Assembly: GCA_902634075.1 (NCBI GenBank)
Contig: CACPJA010000010.1
Span: forward strand, 1 to 43,715
Reading direction: 5' to 3'
DNA: 43,715 bases
Source: an uncultured Gammaproteobacteria bacterium
GTDB lineage: Bacteria > Pseudomonadota > Gammaproteobacteria > Steroidobacterales > UBA11654
The stretch's first letter is position 1, and each line of letters starts with the position of its first letter. The notes beneath the pieces were generated by a model that was not told the DNA's origin, made no database searches, and saw nothing but the letters and a program-made list of their open reading frames with translations. This document shows, piece after piece, positions 5,364-14,501 of the stretch. Both the position numbers and the translations under genes were made by a program.

Positions 5364-6254
5364 ATGTCAGTAATAAGAAAATTTATTTTAGTATTAACCG
5401 TGATTGCCCTTAATGGTTGCGCGGTTCAGCAGATGAGCGCCCCCTCAGGGCCGTCTTCGCCTAGTTCTTCAAGCAGTTCACAGTCACCATCAACTACCCC
5501 ACCGAGTTCTAGTTCACGTTCCAGTTCAAGTGGTTCTCAATCACCTTCAAGCTCCTCATCGAGTTCTAGTTCACAGTCCAGTTCGAGTGGAGGAATATCT
5601 TTTCCTTCATCTCAAGGATCGATCAGTTCTCCATCCTCTCAATCTAGTTCAGCATCTACAGGAAGTGAGCAAACTTCAGGCAATCAATCATCGAGTTCGA
5701 ATGACACAGCCTCCTCAGATCAAGGCAGCAGAGGATCCAATGAATCTATGCAGGGTACCAATAGTGCTTCAGGAGCCTCGGGAACCTCTTCTGAGATGAG
5801 CTCTGGGCAATCTGCTTCCTCAGTATTTGATGAATCTCTAGGTGATTTTGATAAGGAAATGCAAGGAGAAAGGGTCATTATAGCAGCAGCTAATCAATCG
5901 CTAGGAGGGATGACTGCACAAGAGAGTGCTGATGCTGGAGCAATTCAACAAGGCAGTTTAGATGGGCCATTGGATATGGGATCTGGGCAATCTTCAGAGA
6001 TGACTGGTTCTGAAACTGAAGGCCAAGATCAAGACGAAGACAGTTCAGAAAATCAGATGGATGAGACTACGGACTCCACTTCTGGTGATCAAGATAAAAT
6101 AAAAGAGAGGATTCCGGAGGATATACCGATGGATGGAACTGGAGAGGACGTTATTGCAAGACAAATTAGAGAAGCAGCAGTTCAAGAAGATGATCCAATT
6201 ATAAGAGCAGCCCTTTGGGATGAGTATAGAAAGCATATGGGTATTAAAAAATGA
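5364..6254 (+). CDS. Serine-rich lipoprotein, first gene of the envelope operon
   Basis: Unrecognised family. A type II signal peptide is visible: basic start MSVIRK, hydrophobic stretch, lipobox LNGC with Cys19 as the lipidated residue, so the mature protein should be membrane-anchored (probably outer membrane). Residues about 29-116 are almost entirely Ser, Gln, Pro and Gly, a flexible linker-like region. The middle (about 117-255) is acidic and Gln/Ser-rich. The last 40 residues change character and look folded, with EDVIARQIREAAVQEDDP and LWDEYRKHMG forming a probable helical motif. The gene starts 38 bp after the TATAAT box, with AGAGAAGAG just upstream. Its TGA overlaps the next ATG (ATGA). 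The long linker would let the C-terminal helix reach a partner in the periplasm; that role is inference. Confidence 0.85.
   Translation: MSVIRKFILVLTVIALNGCAVQQMSAPSGPSSPSSSSSSQSPSTTPPSSSSRSSSSGSQSPSSSSSSSSSQSSSSGGISFPSSQGSISSPSSQSSSASTGSEQTSGNQSSSSNDTASSDQGSRGSNESMQGTNSASGASGTSSEMSSGQSASSVFDESLGDFDKEMQGERVIIAAANQSLGGMTAQESADAGAIQQGSLDGPLDMGSGQSSEMTGSETEGQDQDEDSSENQMDETTDSTSGDQDKIKERIPEDIPMDGTGEDVIARQIREAAVQEDDPIIRAALWDEYRKHMGIKK
5448..5711 (+). repeat. Low-complexity Ser-coding stretch
   Basis: This part of the lipoprotein gene is built from short imperfect repeats of tca/agt/tct serine codons mixed with cag and cct. Short blocks recur, such as agttctagttcacg/agttctagttcacag. It encodes the Ser-rich linker. 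Such tracts are prone to slippage and length variation, so the linker length may differ between strains. Confidence 0.7.
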
Positions 6255-7459
6255 AAATAATTGAAATTCGACAAAGCCTACTAGCCTTAAAGAATCTCAG
6301 TATTGTTGTTTTCTTTATGTTTAGCGTCATCGTTGTCGAAGCTAAAACAATTCAATATGAAAAAGTTGGTTTGGATCGCGCACAGATTGAGCTTCCGCCA
6401 GAAGAGCTTCTTGATATCGGGATTTTGCTTTTTGATCCAAACATACCCGAGGAAGAGGACGATTTTATCTTCCCAGAAATTAGGAAAGCTGAGGCTAGAT
6501 ATATGCCTTTTCACTTAAAGAAAACTTTACAAGATACTGGTTTTTGGGGAGGTGTATGGGTCTTACCTGAAACTTCAGAAGCAATTGACCTTATTGTTAC
6601 TGGAAGGATAGAGGTATCAGATGGTTTAGATATTTCAATCAGGATAGGCGTCTGGGATATCACTGGAAAGGAGTGGATCAATAAAGTCTATTCGTCCACC
6701 ATCGCCCAAAGTTCATACAGCAAGAGAAGAGATTTAACACAGGATCCCTATCAAAATGTTTATAACAAAATAGCTAATGATTTGGTAAAAATTAAACAAC
6801 AATATGAGACCGAACAGCTAGAGAGAATTAGTGAAATAGGCGACATAAGGTTCGCAGCAGAATTGATACCCAATGTCTACAATGAATATTTAGTTAAAGA
6901 CAAAAAAAATATTTATCAAGCTCAACGATTACCGGATGATGATGACGCCATTATGCAAAGGGTTTATAACATTCAGGAAAGAGAGTTTCTACTCTTGGAC
7001 ACACTGAATGAATACTACGCTCAACTTTATGAAAATATTTCACAACCCTACGAAGATTGGCGAAAGCTCTCAAGAGAAGACATGATCACTTATCAAGAAT
7101 TGAAGAAATCAGCAAGAACAAGGCAGTTACTCGGAGCAGCAGCCTTATTGGGTGCAATTGCCTCCGATGGTGATAGTCGAGCCAGTAGCACCATGAGACA
7201 AATGGCAATCTATGGGGGCATGGAAGCAATGAGAAGCGGCTTTGGGAAAGCATCTGAAGCAAAAATATACAAAGAATCTATGAAAGAGCTTGGAACAGCT
7301 TTTGATTCCCAAGCAGAACCTCTAATTATAGAATTAGAAGGCCAAACCATAAGATTGACAGGTAATGCACAAGAAAAATTTCTTGAATGGAGGAAGTTGC
7401 TCAAGCAGATTTATATTGATGAGACTGGCTTTCAAATTTCAGACTCGTCAGTTCAGTAA
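6251..7459 (+). CDS. Secreted 402-aa protein of the envelope operon, function unknown
   Basis: I do not recognise the family. A hydrophobic N-terminal segment (about residues 16-29) ending VVEA followed by KT looks like a Sec signal peptide cleaved near Ala31. Residues about 50-190 (GILLFDPNIPEEE, then DLIVTGRIEVSDG and VWDITGKEW) resemble the alternating strands of TolB-N/CsgG-like periplasmic domains; this is a weak visual likeness. The middle is helical and charged. A short hydrophobic Ala/Gly/Leu patch (LLGAAALLGAIAS, near 290-302) could insert in a membrane or pack in a helical bundle. The ATG overlaps the TGA of the lipoprotein gene, so the two are translationally coupled and probably needed together. 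An outer-membrane-associated periplasmic component is the most natural guess. Confidence 0.8.
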   Translation: MKIIEIRQSLLALKNLSIVVFFMFSVIVVEAKTIQYEKVGLDRAQIELPPEELLDIGILLFDPNIPEEEDDFIFPEIRKAEARYMPFHLKKTLQDTGFWGGVWVLPETSEAIDLIVTGRIEVSDGLDISIRIGVWDITGKEWINKVYSSTIAQSSYSKRRDLTQDPYQNVYNKIANDLVKIKQQYETEQLERISEIGDIRFAAELIPNVYNEYLVKDKKNIYQAQRLPDDDDAIMQRVYNIQEREFLLLDTLNEYYAQLYENISQPYEDWRKLSREDMITYQELKKSARTRQLLGAAALLGAIASDGDSRASSTMRQMAIYGGMEAMRSGFGKASEAKIYKESMKELGTAFDSQAEPLIIELEGQTIRLTGNAQEKFLEWRKLLKQIYIDETGFQISDSSVQ

Positions 7460-7467
7460 ACTAAGCC

Positions 7468-8961
7468 ATGAAAAAGACTACTCCTGAAGAATCAGAGTCA
7501 ATCGAATTAACTGAGAATCAATCTGAGGATAAGACGATCCATCAGAAGAGGCTTGACCGCCAAAGTCAGCAGCAAGTTAAGCCAGCAACAGCCTATTCTC
7601 TGCTCTCAGTCTTGGCAGTGGTTCTTGTTATTGTGGTTTTTGTTCTACCAAGGTTTGTTGCTGAGAATGAGGTGAACATTTCAGATGAGGGTGTAGAGGA
7701 TGGAAATACTGAAGTACTTTTAAATGAGGCAGTCTTAGCTCAAAAACCAATAGCTGAAGCGCTGCTATCTGAAATGTTGAGTAAGATGGATGATCTAAAA
7801 TCGAGCGGGGTTCAGTTATGGGCTGAAGAGCAATGGGCAAGGATTAGAGACCTTCAATCTCAGGGAGACGAGGCATACCTTAATAGAGGTTATGATATAG
7901 CTGCTGAGAGCTATCGAGAAGCAATGCAGTTGCTTACGGATCTTGAAATTACGATACCAGAAACTTTAGAAAGTGCTCTTCTACTGGGACAAGAATCTAT
8001 CGTTCAAGGCGATAAAAACCTGGCAATAGCAAATTTTGAAACGGCATTAGCTATAGACGGAGGCAACGAGTTGGCTAGGAAAGGTCTTAATAGAGCTCTT
8101 AAGCTAGACAAGGTAATTGAATACTCTCAGTTAGGAGAGAGATTAAGTGAACAAAGAGAGTGGAGCGAATCGATCGTAGCTTTTGAAAAAGCCTTAGCGA
8201 TTGACCCCGAATGGTTGCAGGCACAACAGGGGTTTTCAAAAGCGATCTTAGAAAACGATAAAGAGCAATTTCAATCCTCGCTTTCAAAGGGCTATGCCTT
8301 GATGAAGGAAGAAAAATTTGATGAAGCCGAAGCAGCATTTCAAAAAAGCTTGGAGATTGATCCTGAATCTAAAGCAGGACAACAAGCTATTGAAGAATTA
8401 GAGATTCAGAGGAGAACCTCACTTACAAAATCTCTCAAGTACAAGGGATTAATTGCTGAGGTTAATGAGGAGTGGGACGAAGCCAAATCATATTATGAAA
8501 CAATACTTAATTTTGATTCTAATATTGGTGAAGTTAAAGATAGTTTGATAAGAGTAAATAGCCGGATTCGTTTAATAAATCAGATGATTTCTTTTATTGC
8601 ACAAGCTGAAAATCTGAATGATGACAAATTATTTAATCAAGCTCAACAAGCCTTAATACAAGCCCAATCTATTATGAATAAGGGTCCAAAAATGACCCAA
8701 CAAATCAGTGAATTAGATCAAACTTTAAAGATAGCTTCCACACCCGTTGAGGTTACTCTTATTTCAGATCTTAAAACAGATGTGGTTCTCTATAAAACAG
8801 GAAAGTTCGGTCTTTTTGAGCAAAAAAAAATTCTTCTGAAACCTGGAGTTTACACGGCAAAAGGAACCCGAATTGGGTACAGGGATACAACATTGAGATT
8901 TAAAGTCAGCCCAGAGAATTTAGATCAAAGGTTTATAATCATATGCAGAGATAGGATATGA
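7468..8961 (+). CDS. Membrane-anchored tetratricopeptide-repeat protein
   Basis: 497 aa. A polar, basic cytoplasmic tail (1-40) leads to one membrane helix (about 42-61, SLLSVLAVVLVIVVFVLP), after which the acidic remainder should lie in the periplasm. Residues about 125-350 hold several TPR units with the usual A-x-x-x-Y/F-x-x-A-L spacing, for example AAESYREAMQ, AIANFETALAID, SIVAFEKALAID, AEAAFQKSLEID and AKSYYETIL. The last 70 residues (from STPVEVTLIS, with KPGVYTAKGTRIGY) look like a PEGA-type beta domain, the same type repeated in the next gene. TPRs usually hold protein partners, so this is likely a scaffold for the operon's other periplasmic parts (inference). It follows the previous gene by 8 bp and its TGA overlaps the next ATG. 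Confidence 0.85.
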   Translation: MKKTTPEESESIELTENQSEDKTIHQKRLDRQSQQQVKPATAYSLLSVLAVVLVIVVFVLPRFVAENEVNISDEGVEDGNTEVLLNEAVLAQKPIAEALLSEMLSKMDDLKSSGVQLWAEEQWARIRDLQSQGDEAYLNRGYDIAAESYREAMQLLTDLEITIPETLESALLLGQESIVQGDKNLAIANFETALAIDGGNELARKGLNRALKLDKVIEYSQLGERLSEQREWSESIVAFEKALAIDPEWLQAQQGFSKAILENDKEQFQSSLSKGYALMKEEKFDEAEAAFQKSLEIDPESKAGQQAIEELEIQRRTSLTKSLKYKGLIAEVNEEWDEAKSYYETILNFDSNIGEVKDSLIRVNSRIRLINQMISFIAQAENLNDDKLFNQAQQALIQAQSIMNKGPKMTQQISELDQTLKIASTPVEVTLISDLKTDVVLYKTGKFGLFEQKKILLKPGVYTAKGTRIGYRDTTLRFKVSPENLDQRFIIICRDRI

Positions 8962-11336
8962 AGATTATTTTAAAAGAATCAGACAGTGAAAGGTCATTAA
9001 GCCTTCATGATTTACCTATAAGGATAGGGTCTGATCTAAACACTGATATTAAGATTTCAGGATCACTTTCACTGGGTGTGGCCATGATCATTGATTTAAT
9101 TGATGACCGGTATGTTTTGCAAAAAATCAACCCCACTCTTGAGGCTATGATTAATAGAGATCCTTTGACAGGCAATCACTGGATCAGCGATGGTGATCAA
9201 TTGGAGGTCTCAGATAAGTTGATTAGTTTTAATCTCTCTTCTGAATTACTAGAAGTTAACGTGAGTAATCTTTCAATTGAGAATCAACCAACTCAATTTG
9301 AGAAAAGGCAAAGTGAGAGCATTTTCCAAAATAAGCTTTTTCAAAGATTTGGTCTTGTCTTTTTCTTGGCGCTAACTTATTTCTTATTTTATTTATTCAC
9401 CTCAAAGGCTGTAGAGATTAGAACAACACCGGGCGATGCAAATATTAGTGTTTCTGGGGGGTTTTTTCCTCATTTAAAAATTAGTGGTCGTTTTTTACTC
9501 CGTCCTGGAGAGTATCAAGCTCATTATTCTAAGTCGGGTTATTTCTCTGACACCTTGGTTATTGAGATTAATGAAAAATCTTCACAAGTTATTGATATTA
9601 ATTTAAAAAAACTACCAGGAGTGATTCAATTTAAAACACAACCCGATGTTGATTATGAGCTTTATGTTAATGAAGAAAGAATCAAATCTGACACAGAGGG
9701 AAGTTACTCGATAGAAGCTGGAAAACAAAATATTGAACTGAGATTTGAAAAATATTTTTCTATCCAGGAACAATTGATTATAGAAGGTATGAATCAAGAG
9801 CAACAATTCATCTTTGATCTTGAGCCTGCATGGGCAGATGTTCAGATAAATACAGACCCAAGTGAAGCTGAAGTCATCCTCGATGGACAGAATAAAGGTT
9901 TTAGTCCTTTGGACCTAGATGTCATTGATGGTGACCATACTGTTTTAATTAGAAAATCAGGTTATAAGGATCTCACTTCAGAATTATCAGTTGAGGCTGG
10001 TGAAGAGATTATCACAGAACCCTTTAAGCTAGCTCGACTTGACAGCAAACTCCAAATTATAAGCTCCCCTGAAGGGGCATCGGTAAATCTGAATTCAGTC
10101 TATTTAGGAATGACTCCTATTGATTTGGAGCTAGAGCCGCTTGTAACTCATTTAATCAGCTTCTCAAAGCCTGGTTTTAGAACTCAAGACAAAAGTATTC
10201 AATTGGATACGGTTGAAACACTGAAATCCACGGGTAAAGATTCTGAGCTACTAAAAGTGGATCTGCAACCAATTTATGGAAATGTGAACATCCAAGGAAC
10301 AAAAGACGCCTTGGTGATAAATAATAATGAAACTATCGGGCGTATACCTCTAAAGGTAAATTTAATTGCAAAAGAACAAACCCTAACGGTTAAAAAAGAT
10401 GGCCTTGTTACCCAAGAAATAAAAGTCAAACCGACACCTGGCTTTGATCAGACCTTAAATATTAGATTACTAACTGAGGAGGAGGCAGTCTTAGCCGCCA
10501 TGCCAAAGTTCTTAAAGACTTCTCAAGGTCTTGAGATGAGATTAATATCCCCTGGTCAATTTATTATGGGAACCCCCAGAAGGTCACAAGGGCGACAATC
10601 AAATGAGAGTGAAAGACTAATTGGAATTACCAAACCTTTTTATGTGGGTACTCGAGAAGTGATCAATAATGAATTTAGAGCTTTTAATCCAAAGCATACT
10701 TCAGGAGCTGAATCATATAGAGAACTCTCTAACGGGTTTCATCCGACAGTCATGGTGACTTGGGAAGAAGCAGCTAAATTTTGTAACTGGTTAAGCGAGA
10801 AGGAATCTTTGAGACCAGCTTACAGTTTGGTTGATGGAAAATTAAAATTGATTACTCCCATTACTAATGGCTATCGTCTTCTCACAGAGGCCGAGTGGGA
10901 ATGGGTAGCAAGATATAACGGTGGCGGGGGTAAGCAGAAATACCCTTGGGGCGAAAGTATGCCACCCGAGGAGAATTCAGGAAATTATGCGGATGAATCT
11001 GCCGAGAGTCTTATGACTAATGTGTTGTCGAATTATTGGGACGGTTATCCAGTCTCTTCCCCAAGCAATAAATTCAAACCCAACAGCATCGGTATTTATG
11101 ATTTAGGCGGCAATGTCTCTGAATGGGTGAATGATTATTATTCAACGATTAATAGACAAGTTAATGAGCTTAATAAGGATCCTATTGGACCTGAGGAGGG
11201 GAGTATGAGGGTAATCCGTGGATCAAGTTGGCGTCATTCAACCATTACTGCATTAAGATTCGCTTACCGAGACTATGGCACACAAGGCAGATTAGATGTT
11301 GGTTTTAGGATTGCAAGGTATACTGAAAACGAATAA
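8958..11336 (+). CDS. FHA-like / TM / PEGA-repeat / formylglycine-enzyme-like protein
   Basis: 792 aa, multidomain. Residues 1-92 look like a degenerate FHA domain (RIGS at 22-25, all-beta spacing) in the cytoplasm; the usual Ser/His/Asn phosphopeptide residues are not obvious. One membrane helix spans about 131-149. Then come about five PEGA-type beta repeats (about 151-218, 221-288, 290-358, 362-437, 440-505) marked by TTPGDANISV, TDPSEAEVILDG, SSPEGASVNLNS and G-x-T/R-P-(I/L). Residues about 521-790 are an FGE/SUMF1 (EgtB/PvdO) domain: GQFIMGTP, WEEAAKFCNWLS, RLLTEAEWEWVARY, YPWGE, GIYDLGGNVSEWV, VIRGSSW and VGFRIAR. The active-site cysteines of true formylglycine-generating enzymes, expected just after RGSSW, are missing, so it is probably a binding domain or has changed chemistry. 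The ATG overlaps the TPR gene's stop. Confidence 0.88.
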   Translation: MKIILKESDSERSLSLHDLPIRIGSDLNTDIKISGSLSLGVAMIIDLIDDRYVLQKINPTLEAMINRDPLTGNHWISDGDQLEVSDKLISFNLSSELLEVNVSNLSIENQPTQFEKRQSESIFQNKLFQRFGLVFFLALTYFLFYLFTSKAVEIRTTPGDANISVSGGFFPHLKISGRFLLRPGEYQAHYSKSGYFSDTLVIEINEKSSQVIDINLKKLPGVIQFKTQPDVDYELYVNEERIKSDTEGSYSIEAGKQNIELRFEKYFSIQEQLIIEGMNQEQQFIFDLEPAWADVQINTDPSEAEVILDGQNKGFSPLDLDVIDGDHTVLIRKSGYKDLTSELSVEAGEEIITEPFKLARLDSKLQIISSPEGASVNLNSVYLGMTPIDLELEPLVTHLISFSKPGFRTQDKSIQLDTVETLKSTGKDSELLKVDLQPIYGNVNIQGTKDALVINNNETIGRIPLKVNLIAKEQTLTVKKDGLVTQEIKVKPTPGFDQTLNIRLLTEEEAVLAAMPKFLKTSQGLEMRLISPGQFIMGTPRRSQGRQSNESERLIGITKPFYVGTREVINNEFRAFNPKHTSGAESYRELSNGFHPTVMVTWEEAAKFCNWLSEKESLRPAYSLVDGKLKLITPITNGYRLLTEAEWEWVARYNGGGGKQKYPWGESMPPEENSGNYADESAESLMTNVLSNYWDGYPVSSPSNKFKPNSIGIYDLGGNVSEWVNDYYSTINRQVNELNKDPIGPEEGSMRVIRGSSWRHSTITALRFAYRDYGTQGRLDVGFRIARYTENE

Positions 11337-11346
11337 ATTAAAGACT

Positions 11347-11604
11347 GTGAAAGAAAAAATATCAATAACTTTAACGATACTATTGCTTGGATTTAGCCTA
11401 GGTATCGGAGCCGTGTATTCTCAATCTGAAGAACAAACAGCTCCCGATAATAGTATGAGCAAGACTCAAGAAGAGATTGATCAAGAATTACAACAGGAAT
11501 TAGACAGAATACAGGCTGCCTATGAAGAGGAAACACTTGAAGAGTTTATTCCTTCCGAGCCATTATCTGCAGATGTTTCTGTTAGTTTTCCATCGGATAT
11601 ATAA
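11347..11604 (+). CDS. Small acidic secreted protein of the envelope operon
   Basis: About 85 aa if started at the GTG at 11347, 10 bp after the previous stop. The frame is open back to an ATG at 11296, but that start would overlap the preceding gene by 41 bp and bury the signal sequence. From the GTG the protein begins VKEKISITLTILLLGFSLG, a clean Sec signal peptide ending near AVYSQ. The mature part is short, acidic and Gln/Glu-rich (EEIDQELQQELDRIQAAYEE), likely one amphipathic helix. No homologue comes to mind. Because it is encoded just before the channel gene, it may be a periplasmic accessory peptide of that complex (inference). The start codon is uncertain. Confidence 0.65.
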   Translation: MKEKISITLTILLLGFSLGIGAVYSQSEEQTAPDNSMSKTQEEIDQELQQELDRIQAAYEEETLEEFIPSEPLSADVSVSFPSDI

Positions 11605-11616
11605 ACAGGGGATTCA

Positions 11617-12417
11617 ATGAACACACAAAATCTTTCAAAGGAATTTTTATACCAAGGATTCGCATTAATTTTATCTATCATCCTGGTACACGCTTTTTAC
11701 GTCTCAGTTGTTCGACCAGAGGCTGCCTCGATAATACAAGAACAGCAAGCCATGATAGAGCAAGATATTAACTATGTCCCTGAACGATCTTTTTACGTCA
11801 TTGTTAGGGATTTTGAGCAAGAGGCTTGTTTTATTTTGATGCTTTGGGCGTTTGCAATTATGACCCTTAAGGCACAATCATCGATTAATGAAAGAAGACT
11901 ATTGCAAGAAGACCTCATTCCTATTCGAGAGGGTCAGAGTATTAAGCCTGAGGATTCAAAAGACTTTCTGAGACAATTAGAAAATTTACCTGAATCCAAG
12001 AGGCAACTTTTATTACCTCGTATTCTGATGAATGGGTTAAAACGTTTTTCCACCACAAAAAATGTTCAAGATGTTTCCACGTCAACGCACACAATGGTTG
12101 AATCGGAAGCTGATCGATTGGAATCAGAGCTATCAATGATACGTTATATAGCATGGGCAATTCCGTCGATTGGTTTTATTGGAACGGTTAGAGGCATTGG
12201 AGCAGCTCTTTCATTGGCCCACAGAGCCGTTGATGGTGATATTAGTGGCGTCACCCAGAATCTCGGCGTGGCTTTCAATTCAACTTTTATCGCATTGTTG
12301 ATTAGTATTGTCATTATGTTTTTGGTGCATCAGCTTCAATTACTTCAAGAGCGTCAGATTTTCGAAACAGAAGGTTACTGCGATCAAAATTTAATCACCC
12401 ATCTTAAGGGAGATTAG
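11617..12417 (+). CDS. MotA/TolQ/ExbB-family proton-channel protein
   Basis: 266 aa inner-membrane protein. Membrane segments are at about 12-30, 70-86, 174-197 and 217-238, with a cytoplasmic helical region (87-173) between the second and third. The third helix carries the family signature AIPSIGFIGTVRGIGAA with Thr190. The fourth reads LGVAFNSTFIALLIS with Thr223. These Thr positions correspond to the polar residues lining the ion path in TolQ/ExbB/MotA. A good Shine-Dalgarno (AGGGG) precedes the ATG. Family members form pentamers around a dimer of one-helix partners (TolR, ExbD, MotB). The two genes immediately downstream supply such helices, so this is most likely the stator of a proton- or sodium-driven complex. 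It is not tolQ itself: no tolR/tolA/tolB/pal genes are nearby and the partners carry vWA domains. Confidence 0.88.
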   Translation: MNTQNLSKEFLYQGFALILSIILVHAFYVSVVRPEAASIIQEQQAMIEQDINYVPERSFYVIVRDFEQEACFILMLWAFAIMTLKAQSSINERRLLQEDLIPIREGQSIKPEDSKDFLRQLENLPESKRQLLLPRILMNGLKRFSTTKNVQDVSTSTHTMVESEADRLESELSMIRYIAWAIPSIGFIGTVRGIGAALSLAHRAVDGDISGVTQNLGVAFNSTFIALLISIVIMFLVHQLQLLQERQIFETEGYCDQNLITHLKGD

Positions 12418-12429
12418 TGGCAGTTATTT

Positions 12430-13524
12430 ATGGCCAGAAGACAATTTAGCGTTTTCAACTTATCATTTCTTGATGTAATCTCATGCGGTTTTGGAGCTGT
12501 GATTTTGTTCTTTATGATTATAAATTCTCAGGTTAAAAGTCGGAGTGATCAGGCAAGCTCAGAACTCCAATCAGAGACTAAACTGCTTGAGGAACAAATA
12601 TTTGATGAGCAAAAACAATTGGTAAGGCTTAATAATTCATTAGAAAAGACAGAAAAAGAAAATACACTTATCCAAGGAAGTGTCAGTGAATTACAAGAGA
12701 AACTAGAAGAGCTATTAAAAGAGATTGAGTTTTATGAAAATAATTCCCTAGCCTCTGAGAACGATATCAAGCGACTTCAATCGGATATTCAACAGCTAAT
12801 GGAATCCAATAAAAGAATGAGTGCTCAGGCAGCACTTGAGGCCTCTAATCCTGGGAGATCGCTCAGAGAGTTTATCGGTGATGGCAATCGTCAATATCTT
12901 ACTGAGCTAAAACTGGGTGGCAAACACGTTCTTTTTTTGGTTGATTCATCAGCAAGTATGTTAGGCAGGACCTATGTCAATGTTATACGTTACAGAAACA
13001 TGCAAGACAGTCAGAAGGTTAAGGCACCAAAATGGAGGCAAACAGTAAATAGTGTGGACTGGCTAACAACTCGTCTAACTGAAGGTACTAAGTTCCAAAT
13101 CTACACTTTTAATGAATCAACCGTTAGTGCAATAAAGGACTCTGAAGGTGATTGGCTTGAGGTGACAGATGGAACAACCATTGCAAAAGCCATGAATGAA
13201 CTAAGATCAACAATTCCTCAAAACGGAACAAGCCTGATCAAAGCGTTTGAGATGATAGATGATCTAGAACCTAGGCCTGATAATATTTTTTTGTTAACTG
13301 ACGGTTTACCCACTCAGGGAAGGCGCGACTCAAACCCTGGCACAATGGTTAAGCCAGAACAACGAATAAGATATTTCGATCAGGCACTTAGAGAGTTACC
13401 TCCGATTCCAGTAAATGTGCTGTTGTTTCCAATGGATGGAGACCCTTCTGCTGCCGAGGCATACTGGCGTCTTGCCATACGTTCCAAGGGAAGTTTTATG
13501 GCTCCATCAAGGGATTGGCCATAA
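12430..13524 (+). CDS. TolR/ExbD-like membrane helix fused to coiled coil and vWA domain (copy 1)
   Basis: 364 aa. A short basic tail (MARRQ) precedes one membrane helix (about 11-32) written FNLSFLDVISCGFGAVILFF. Asp15 sits where TolR, ExbD and MotB carry the ion-binding Asp (compare the LLDVLLVLL pattern of TolR). Residues about 36-135 are a charged coiled coil. Residues about 165-360 form a von Willebrand A domain with a full metal-ion-dependent adhesion site: Asp172-x-Ser174-x-Ser176 in LVDSSASM, Thr267 in QNGTSL and Asp291 in LLTDGLPT. Topology would be N-in with the vWA domain in the periplasm. It starts 12 bp after the channel gene and its TAA shares a base with the next ATG. I know of no named family with this exact architecture, though related hypothetical proteins may be annotated simply as vWA proteins. 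Confidence 0.88.
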   Translation: MARRQFSVFNLSFLDVISCGFGAVILFFMIINSQVKSRSDQASSELQSETKLLEEQIFDEQKQLVRLNNSLEKTEKENTLIQGSVSELQEKLEELLKEIEFYENNSLASENDIKRLQSDIQQLMESNKRMSAQAALEASNPGRSLREFIGDGNRQYLTELKLGGKHVLFLVDSSASMLGRTYVNVIRYRNMQDSQKVKAPKWRQTVNSVDWLTTRLTEGTKFQIYTFNESTVSAIKDSEGDWLEVTDGTTIAKAMNELRSTIPQNGTSLIKAFEMIDDLEPRPDNIFLLTDGLPTQGRRDSNPGTMVKPEQRIRYFDQALRELPPIPVNVLLFPMDGDPSAAEAYWRLAIRSKGSFMAPSRDWP

Positions 13525-14501
13525 TGAGAAAAAGACGAAATATGGAAACTTTCAATCTTTCTTTTTTGGATGTGGTTTGTTGTGGTTTTGGAGCGGTTAT
13601 TTTACTACTGGTTATTACCAAAATTTATGAACCAGTGACCATTGAGAAGAGTCGTGAAGATTTACAAGAGTTAATTGTTAAGTTGGAGCGAGAACTTAAT
13701 GAGATCAGAGGCGATTCAACTGTGATTAATCGAGACTTAAAGGAAATTGAGGAGCAGCTCTCAGAAAATAAAAAGAAAAAGAATAAACTAGCCGGTGATC
13801 TTTCAGAGATGGAAGGAGAGTTTAGTGCAACTAGATCTATGTCCGAGGAGTCAACAGGAACAATGAACAGTTTGCTCTCAGCAAAACAGACCTTAACGGA
13901 TGAAATGAAGAGATTGCTCAAAGATTATAATCCAATTGATGACTCAACTGTGGGAGGCATTCCTGTAGATAGCGAGTATATTATTTTCGTCATAGATACC
14001 TCGGGTAGTATGTATCAAGGACCTTGGAATCTAGTGATACAAAAGATTACTGAAACCCTAAGCGTTTACCCCAGAGTTAAAGGCATACAAGTTTTAAATG
14101 ATGAGGGTGAATATATGTTTGGGACCTATAGTGGTCGATGGATCCCAGACTCACCAGAAATTAGGCAAAATATTACCCGAACGCTGCGATTCTGGAATCC
14201 CTATAGTGATTCAAGTCCCGTTGAAGGCATCACCGAAGCCATCAGTACCTTTTATGAAGAAGATAAGCAGATTAGTATTTATGTTTTTGGCGATGATTTT
14301 CCCAGAGGTTCTGTTGAGGCAGTCTGTCGGTATGTTTCTCGAATCAATAAAGCAGATCGTTTTGGAAATCGTTTAGTAAGGATTCATGGTATTGGTTTCC
14401 CAACACAGGTGGGGTATGAAAACGGAGCAAGATTTGCTCATTTAATGAGAAAGTTATCAGAGCAGAATGGGGGCACTTTTGTTGCTATTCCCCATCTATA
14501 A
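13524..14501 (+). CDS. TolR/ExbD-like membrane helix fused to coiled coil and vWA domain (copy 2)
   Basis: 325 aa from the ATG at 13524, which overlaps the preceding TAA (TAATG). A TTG nine bases upstream is a less likely start. The N-terminal helix FNLSFLDVVCCGFGAVIL matches copy 1 in 16 of 18 positions, including the Asp (Asp16). A Lys/Glu-rich coiled coil (about 40-130) and a vWA domain follow: Asp158-x-Ser160-x-Ser162 in VIDTSGSM and an acidic FGDD near 255-258. The vWA part differs strongly from copy 1, and the middle metal-site Thr is not clear. Near-identity of the helix against divergence elsewhere suggests both copies plug into the same channel, perhaps as a heterodimer, while the vWA domains bind different partners (inference). 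It ends the operon core; phhB follows 14 bp later. Confidence 0.87.
   Translation: MRKRRNMETFNLSFLDVVCCGFGAVILLLVITKIYEPVTIEKSREDLQELIVKLERELNEIRGDSTVINRDLKEIEEQLSENKKKKNKLAGDLSEMEGEFSATRSMSEESTGTMNSLLSAKQTLTDEMKRLLKDYNPIDDSTVGGIPVDSEYIIFVIDTSGSMYQGPWNLVIQKITETLSVYPRVKGIQVLNDEGEYMFGTYSGRWIPDSPEIRQNITRTLRFWNPYSDSSPVEGITEAISTFYEEDKQISIYVFGDDFPRGSVEAVCRYVSRINKADRFGNRLVRIHGIGFPTQVGYENGARFAHLMRKLSEQNGGTFVAIPHL

Follow-up and report, generated by a model that had tools for sequence, protein, structure and literature searches.

Paired vWA proteins that share an Asp-bearing helix beside a TolQ-like channel: candidate axle subunits of an ion-driven envelope motor

Ion-driven motors of the 5:2 type drive flagella, outer-membrane upkeep, nutrient import, gliding and phage defence. 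The closest described relatives of the locus analysed here are the TPH-vWA genes, which occur as heterologous pairs beside tolQ-like genes without tolR and whose products have been proposed to form the axle of a 5:2 motor of the TolQ type, with unknown function (PMC12204202, Mol Biol Evol 2025, section 8 and Fig. 4c,d; cited here and below for the available portions of its text). AF3 models in that work, which are predictions only, place the TPH-vWA pair in a TolQ-like pentamer in which the Asp points at a ring of threonines (PMC12204202). The available text describes no kinase, FHA, Hsp70-fold, FGE/PEGA, TPR or lipoprotein neighbours, mentions neither kinase nor sulfatase and matches the string 'FHA' solely in FhaC, and a literature search for the combination of kinase, FHA, TolQ and vWA found no other description. 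As far as that text goes, the core motor idea is already published as a prediction, and the conserved operon is the addition made here.

We compared these systems with a locus in a 43,715-nucleotide stretch of DNA from an uncultured gammaproteobacterium (contig CACPJA010000010.1; hereafter the window). Its two vWA genes, vWA1 and vWA2 (Table 1), each encode a vWA protein with an N-terminal membrane helix and an invariant Asp, and the pair lies by a tolQ-like channel gene, F. The operon genes that were scanned encode no protein of the ExbD/TolR/MotB type; no TolA/TonB gene was found in the operon either. On the sequence features that can be tested, vWA1 and vWA2 agree with TPH-vWA proteins as the available text sets these out, a likeness by description rather than by alignment with the Idiomarina proteins of PMC12204202. 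With TolQ-TolR, ExbB-ExbD and MotA-MotB the locus has in common the channel family, the two pore threonines and a single N-terminal Asp helix in the putative axle, but vWA1 and vWA2 continue into a long coiled coil and a vWA head rather than a TolR/ExbD or OmpA-like domain. The Myxococcus gliding system AglR-AglQ-AglS likewise joins one channel to two different axle proteins, each with an Asp, and for AglQ/AglS the choice between hetero- and homodimer is also open (PMC9389320). AglQ/S differ in ending TolR-like and peptidoglycan-binding, and the vWA domain in Myxococcus is on a separate adhesin, CglB.

Table 1. Operon genes and shared helices, in nucleotide positions of the window.
Feature	Position	Strand	Description
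A	5364..6254	+	Lipoprotein; lipobox LNGC by eye; Ser-rich disordered linker, 27% Ser
B	6251..7459	+	Exported protein or lipoprotein, ~400 aa; 29 invariant alignment columns
C	7468..8961	+	Inner-membrane anchor and periplasmic TPR; TPR matches; TM 42-60
D	8958..11336	+	FHA-like cytosolic N-terminus, TM ~131-149, periplasmic PEGA repeats, FGE-sulfatase/GldK-like domain
E	11296..11604	+	Small exported protein, about 95-102 aa; ORF weakly conserved in three relatives
F	11617..12417	+	MotA/TolQ/ExbB-type channel; PF01618 E 2.4e-15, above cut-off
G (vWA1)	12430..13524	+	N-terminal transpore-type helix, long coiled coil, vWA with intact MIDAS
Shared helix, vWA1	12454-12507	+	Residues 9-26, FNLSFLDVISCGFGAVIL; Asp15 codon 12472-12474
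H (vWA2)	13524..14501	+	Architecture as vWA1; diverged vWA, intact MIDAS
Shared helix, vWA2	13551-13604	+	Residues 10-27, FNLSFLDVVCCGFGAVIL; Asp16 codon 13569-13571

The shared helices of vWA1 and vWA2 were identical at 16/18 residues, and the next-best 18-residue match of the two proteins elsewhere reached 8/18. Beyond the helix the proteins are distant paralogues (28% identity over part of their length, E 2.5e-8), and across 89 locus pairs mean paralogue identity per locus was 73% in the helix and 17% outside it. These values bear out the initial annotation, which had described twin vWA proteins with a near-identical helix and a widely diverged remainder; its placement of the Asp at residue 15 of vWA1 and residue 16 of vWA2 also holds when vWA2 is counted from ATG 13524, a start that we favour because it overlaps the vWA1 stop (TAATG) and that makes a TTG start at 13515 unlikely. 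Just 7/16 of the identical helix residues used the same codon in vWA1 and vWA2 and four-fold sites agreed at 2/6, indicating that constraint at the protein level keeps the two helices alike, as the earlier proposal of selection on the helix had it, and ruling out recent gene conversion as the cause of the match. Immediately past the shared part the residues become paralogue-specific (FFMIIN versus LLVITK).

Among 230 homologous proteins (115 vWA1 and 115 vWA2), the Asp was present in 228/228 readable helices, Cys at +4 from it in 229/229 and Gly at +7 in 229/229, figures of which those for vWA2 are the less biased because the scan of named genomes was partly seeded with the vWA1 Asp motif. Positions +0, +4, +7 and +11 (D, C, G, L) are carried on one face of the helix, and free variation of the Asp among homologues, which would have told against the proposed role, was not seen in this set. 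Independently of motif seeding, as was the vWA2 sampling, a protein-level search of 59 genomes of the same genus, family and order found the protein in 52, usually as an adjacent pair. The scan of named genomes returned 581 relatives, and the best 80 of these 581, which were retained, were mostly Woeseiales-like and other gammaproteobacterial contigs, together with contigs labelled Desulfobacterota and Acidobacteriota.

A FastTree phylogeny of the 230 proteins resolved vWA1 and vWA2 as two separate, reciprocally monophyletic clades (supports 1.0 and 0.75). Each genome normally carried exactly two copies, one vWA1 and one vWA2, and no genome with a complete system but a single paralogue was seen among those checked. 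One family of the order encodes vWA2 away from the channel-X-vWA1 locus (L149, L150, L151; L033, L036), and loss of vWA2 in the family of L033 and L036 was rejected because the gene sits on other contigs. Copy irregularities were seen in three further places: one genome (G035) has two vWA2-like copies; a close relative has a second vWA1-like copy with 81% identity and six in-frame stops (G009:C15:1-1068), which is either a decayed copy or an assembly error; and in the nearest named relative, whose vWA1 is 98% identical, vWA2 is broken into two ORFs (L042:9683-10665, BPCL01000013.1), probably by a sequencing frameshift.

The profile match of F (Table 1) assigns it to the MotA/TolQ/ExbB family, so that the gene upstream of vWA1 is indeed of the channel type that had been attributed to it. 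In a profile comparison with TolQ structures, which covered TM3/TM4, Thr190 and Thr223 of F aligned with the TolQ pore threonines, and each was invariant in 107/107 homologues. Wherever enough flank was available, an F-subfamily channel lay upstream of vWA1 (69/69 homologous loci). A seemingly missing channel in one locus (L084) proved to be an ORF-calling artefact, the channel being found at 434 bits once the reading frame was corrected. In five genomes of the order checked that carry no vWA pair, the F-type channel was absent in four and marginally matched in the fifth. It was present in 3/3 checked genomes with a distant single TPH-vWA protein, in four with vWA2 outside the operon and, unlinked, in G269. 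The lone motif-bearing genome checked that had no channel (G616) gave a single marginal motif match (E 9e-4) that is probably due to chance, so that motif-bearing proteins with no channel partner, the other observation named beforehand as counter-evidence, come down to this match against adjacency in 69/69 loci. Fixation of the Asp and linkage to an F-type channel support the reading of the shared helix as one that may enter the channel.

AlphaFold2 modelled the vWA1 family as an unbroken helix (13-139) followed by a vWA domain (163-364), with a mean pLDDT of 79.6 and modest confidence in the coiled-coil helix (pLDDT about 55-80); in this model the ~105 helix residues past the membrane would span ~160 A. 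The vWA1 head aligned with the bacterial vWA protein 4fx5 (VIA-align, Z 17.8, rmsd 2.4, 165 residues), and the MIDAS DxSxS motif and a further Asp were fixed in both paralogues, with the exception of one Asp-to-Ala row in vWA1. Membership of the vWA family is given by the fold in the vWA1 model and by the MIDAS residues in both vWA1 and vWA2. At its very end vWA1 terminates in Trp-Pro (nt 13516-13521), both residues of which are kept in 115/115 homologues.

Neither 39 helices nor the full proteins yielded an ExbD/TolR Pfam match, and no Pfam or PDB match of the helix to ExbD, TolR or MotB was found. The C-terminal domain of vWA1 is a vWA domain, as the Z score above attests, and not an ExbD/TolR-type periplasmic domain, and the domain scan found no OmpA-like peptidoglycan-binding domain of the MotB kind in the vWA proteins. 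By sequence and C-terminal domain, vWA1 and vWA2 fall outside the ExbD/TolR and MotB families, and they may nonetheless work like them. The initial annotation had the Asp placed as in TolR, ExbD and MotB: its invariance and its position beside a specific channel agree with this, whereas the placement itself rests on analogy because the helix has no profile match to those families, nor a PDB match.

We found the gene order A, B, C, D, (E), F, (X), vWA1, vWA2 to be common to 20 loci and 80 more. Across 29 loci the C-terminal tail of A, ~40 residues long (...DIPMDGTGEDVIARQIREAAVQEDDPIIRAALWDEYRKHMGIKK), was almost fixed and the Ser/Gly-rich linker was unconserved; the tail is possibly a docking peptide. 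Most relatives of B have the lipobox Cys, and B gave no Pfam or NCBIfam family and no PDB relative by sequence. D matched PEGA (2.7e-30) and FGE-sulfatase (3.7e-37), its likeness to FHA was weak (1/16 members, E 0.0095), and the catalytic Cys pair of true FGE was not visible by eye in the aligned stretch. The FGE-like domain of D also matched GldK (E 1.7e-31) and PorK structures, but the GldK match was under the model cut-off, and D has PEGA repeats and an inner-membrane anchor where GldK/PorK is a lipoprotein ring subunit.

In homologues of C, an N-terminal Ser/Thr kinase was detected in 26/49 loci (Pkinase E 3.2e-35 in L041), and 43/49 loci encode X, a protein with the fold of the Hsp70 nucleotide domain (Z 28.8) and with an FHA domain at its C-terminus. 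Kinase and X occurred together in 26 of the 49 loci, X without a detected operon kinase in 17 and neither in 6, so that every locus with a detected kinase also had X. Kinase and X are both missing from the window's own lineage, which keeps the axle, channel and periplasmic genes, indicating that phospho-control is not essential. In the Hsp70-fold/FHA fusion at L041:8588-9958 the N-terminal motif lacks, by eye, the usual Hsp70 DLGTT pattern, so this protein may not bind ATP. Three loci (L132, L133 and L134) encode a distant single-copy TPH-vWA protein with the helix variant SALDLFASAMGAF, next to a Ser/Thr kinase, a PP2C phosphatase, FHA and trypsin-FHA proteins; this gene set is a sister system.

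In type VI secretion, TagR has an FGE-like fold and PpkA a vWA domain. Like the operon family, the T6SS pathway TagQRST-PpkA-PppA-Fha1 combines a kinase, FHA, an outer-membrane lipoprotein and an envelope partner; the envelope module TagQRST activates PpkA, which phosphorylates Fha1 (PMC12607579). However, the operon contains no T6SS genes and carries its vWA on the channel axle, and the resemblance to this pathway (PMC12607579) is a lead only. Six operon proteins scanned for Zorya gave weak ZorA (E 0.0014) and coiled-coil ZorA (E 0.0089) matches, short of a Zorya system, and other known defence systems were rejected on weak, mostly coiled-coil matches.

Fixation of the helix and its Asp, channel linkage, the intact MIDAS, the modelled long helix and the operon content were computed directly. 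With moderate confidence, we propose an ion-driven motor of the 5:2 type in which F forms the ring and the axle is made of two subunits, vWA1 and vWA2. Their helices would lie inside the pore of an F pentamer, where a proton (or other ion) would be carried on Asp15/Asp16 opposite the two threonine positions that F conserves. Beyond the membrane, a single helix of ~105 residues would extend through the periplasm and bring the two unlike vWA heads towards the outer membrane. There the metal sites of the heads would grip a partner, perhaps the tail of lipoprotein A, or C (TPR) and D (PEGA/FGE). Turned or pulled by the ion flow, the axle would perform mechanical work on the outer envelope. Where relatives have the Ser/Thr kinase and FHA proteins, the motor would probably be switched from the cytosol; the window's lineage, which lacks these genes, would keep the mechanical core. 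The most complete version of this picture, a trans-envelope motor with a heterodimeric, metal-dependent vWA axle and a TolQ-like ring that acts on the tailed lipoprotein, switched by kinase, FHA and Hsp70 in many lineages and with the switch shed elsewhere, is tentative, and we think it somewhat doubtful that every part holds.

A 1:1 heterodimer of vWA1 and vWA2 is plausible because there is one of each paralogue, the split is ancient and vWA2 is retained even outside the operon. The near-identical helix would also let vWA1 and vWA2 each enter the same pore, and vWA2 outside the operon in some families suggests that tight co-translation is unneeded, so that one F channel could serve two alternative homodimeric axles and form two motors with different outputs. 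We consider this unlikely, as genomes normally hold one of each and no complete system with one alone was seen; the divergence of FFMIIN from LLVITK fits a hetero-interface as well, although not decisively.

The vWA heads could instead detect envelope contact or damage, with channel opening or the kinase reporting it, as an ion-flux signal like that of Zorya or as a threonine-phosphorylation pathway like that of T6SS. Relatives and variants with genes for a kinase, FHA, PP2C and FGE-like proteins point this way, as does the precedent of TagQRST signalling through PpkA to Fha1 (PMC12607579), but the window's lineage keeps axle, channel and periplasmic genes with neither kinase nor Hsp70-FHA protein, ZorB, ZorC and ZorD were not found among the six proteins scanned, and the ZorA match is the weak one given above; a sensor in place of a motor is in our view quite improbable. 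That the helix is conserved merely as a signal for export or an anchor in the membrane, its TolR likeness arising by chance, would fit the missing sequence-profile match to ExbD, TolR or MotB, yet a buried Asp that is invariant in two paralogue families beside a specific channel is unexpected for an anchor, and we give this explanation very little credence.

The proposed axle-and-ring motor would belong to a branch present in 52/59 sampled genomes of one mostly marine order, probably Woeseiales, and in other proteobacterial lineages. For this branch the operon supplies candidate partners in the tail of lipoprotein A, the FGE-like domain and the kinase. Lineages with and without the kinase form an evolutionary series from which the regulation of such a motor could be learned.
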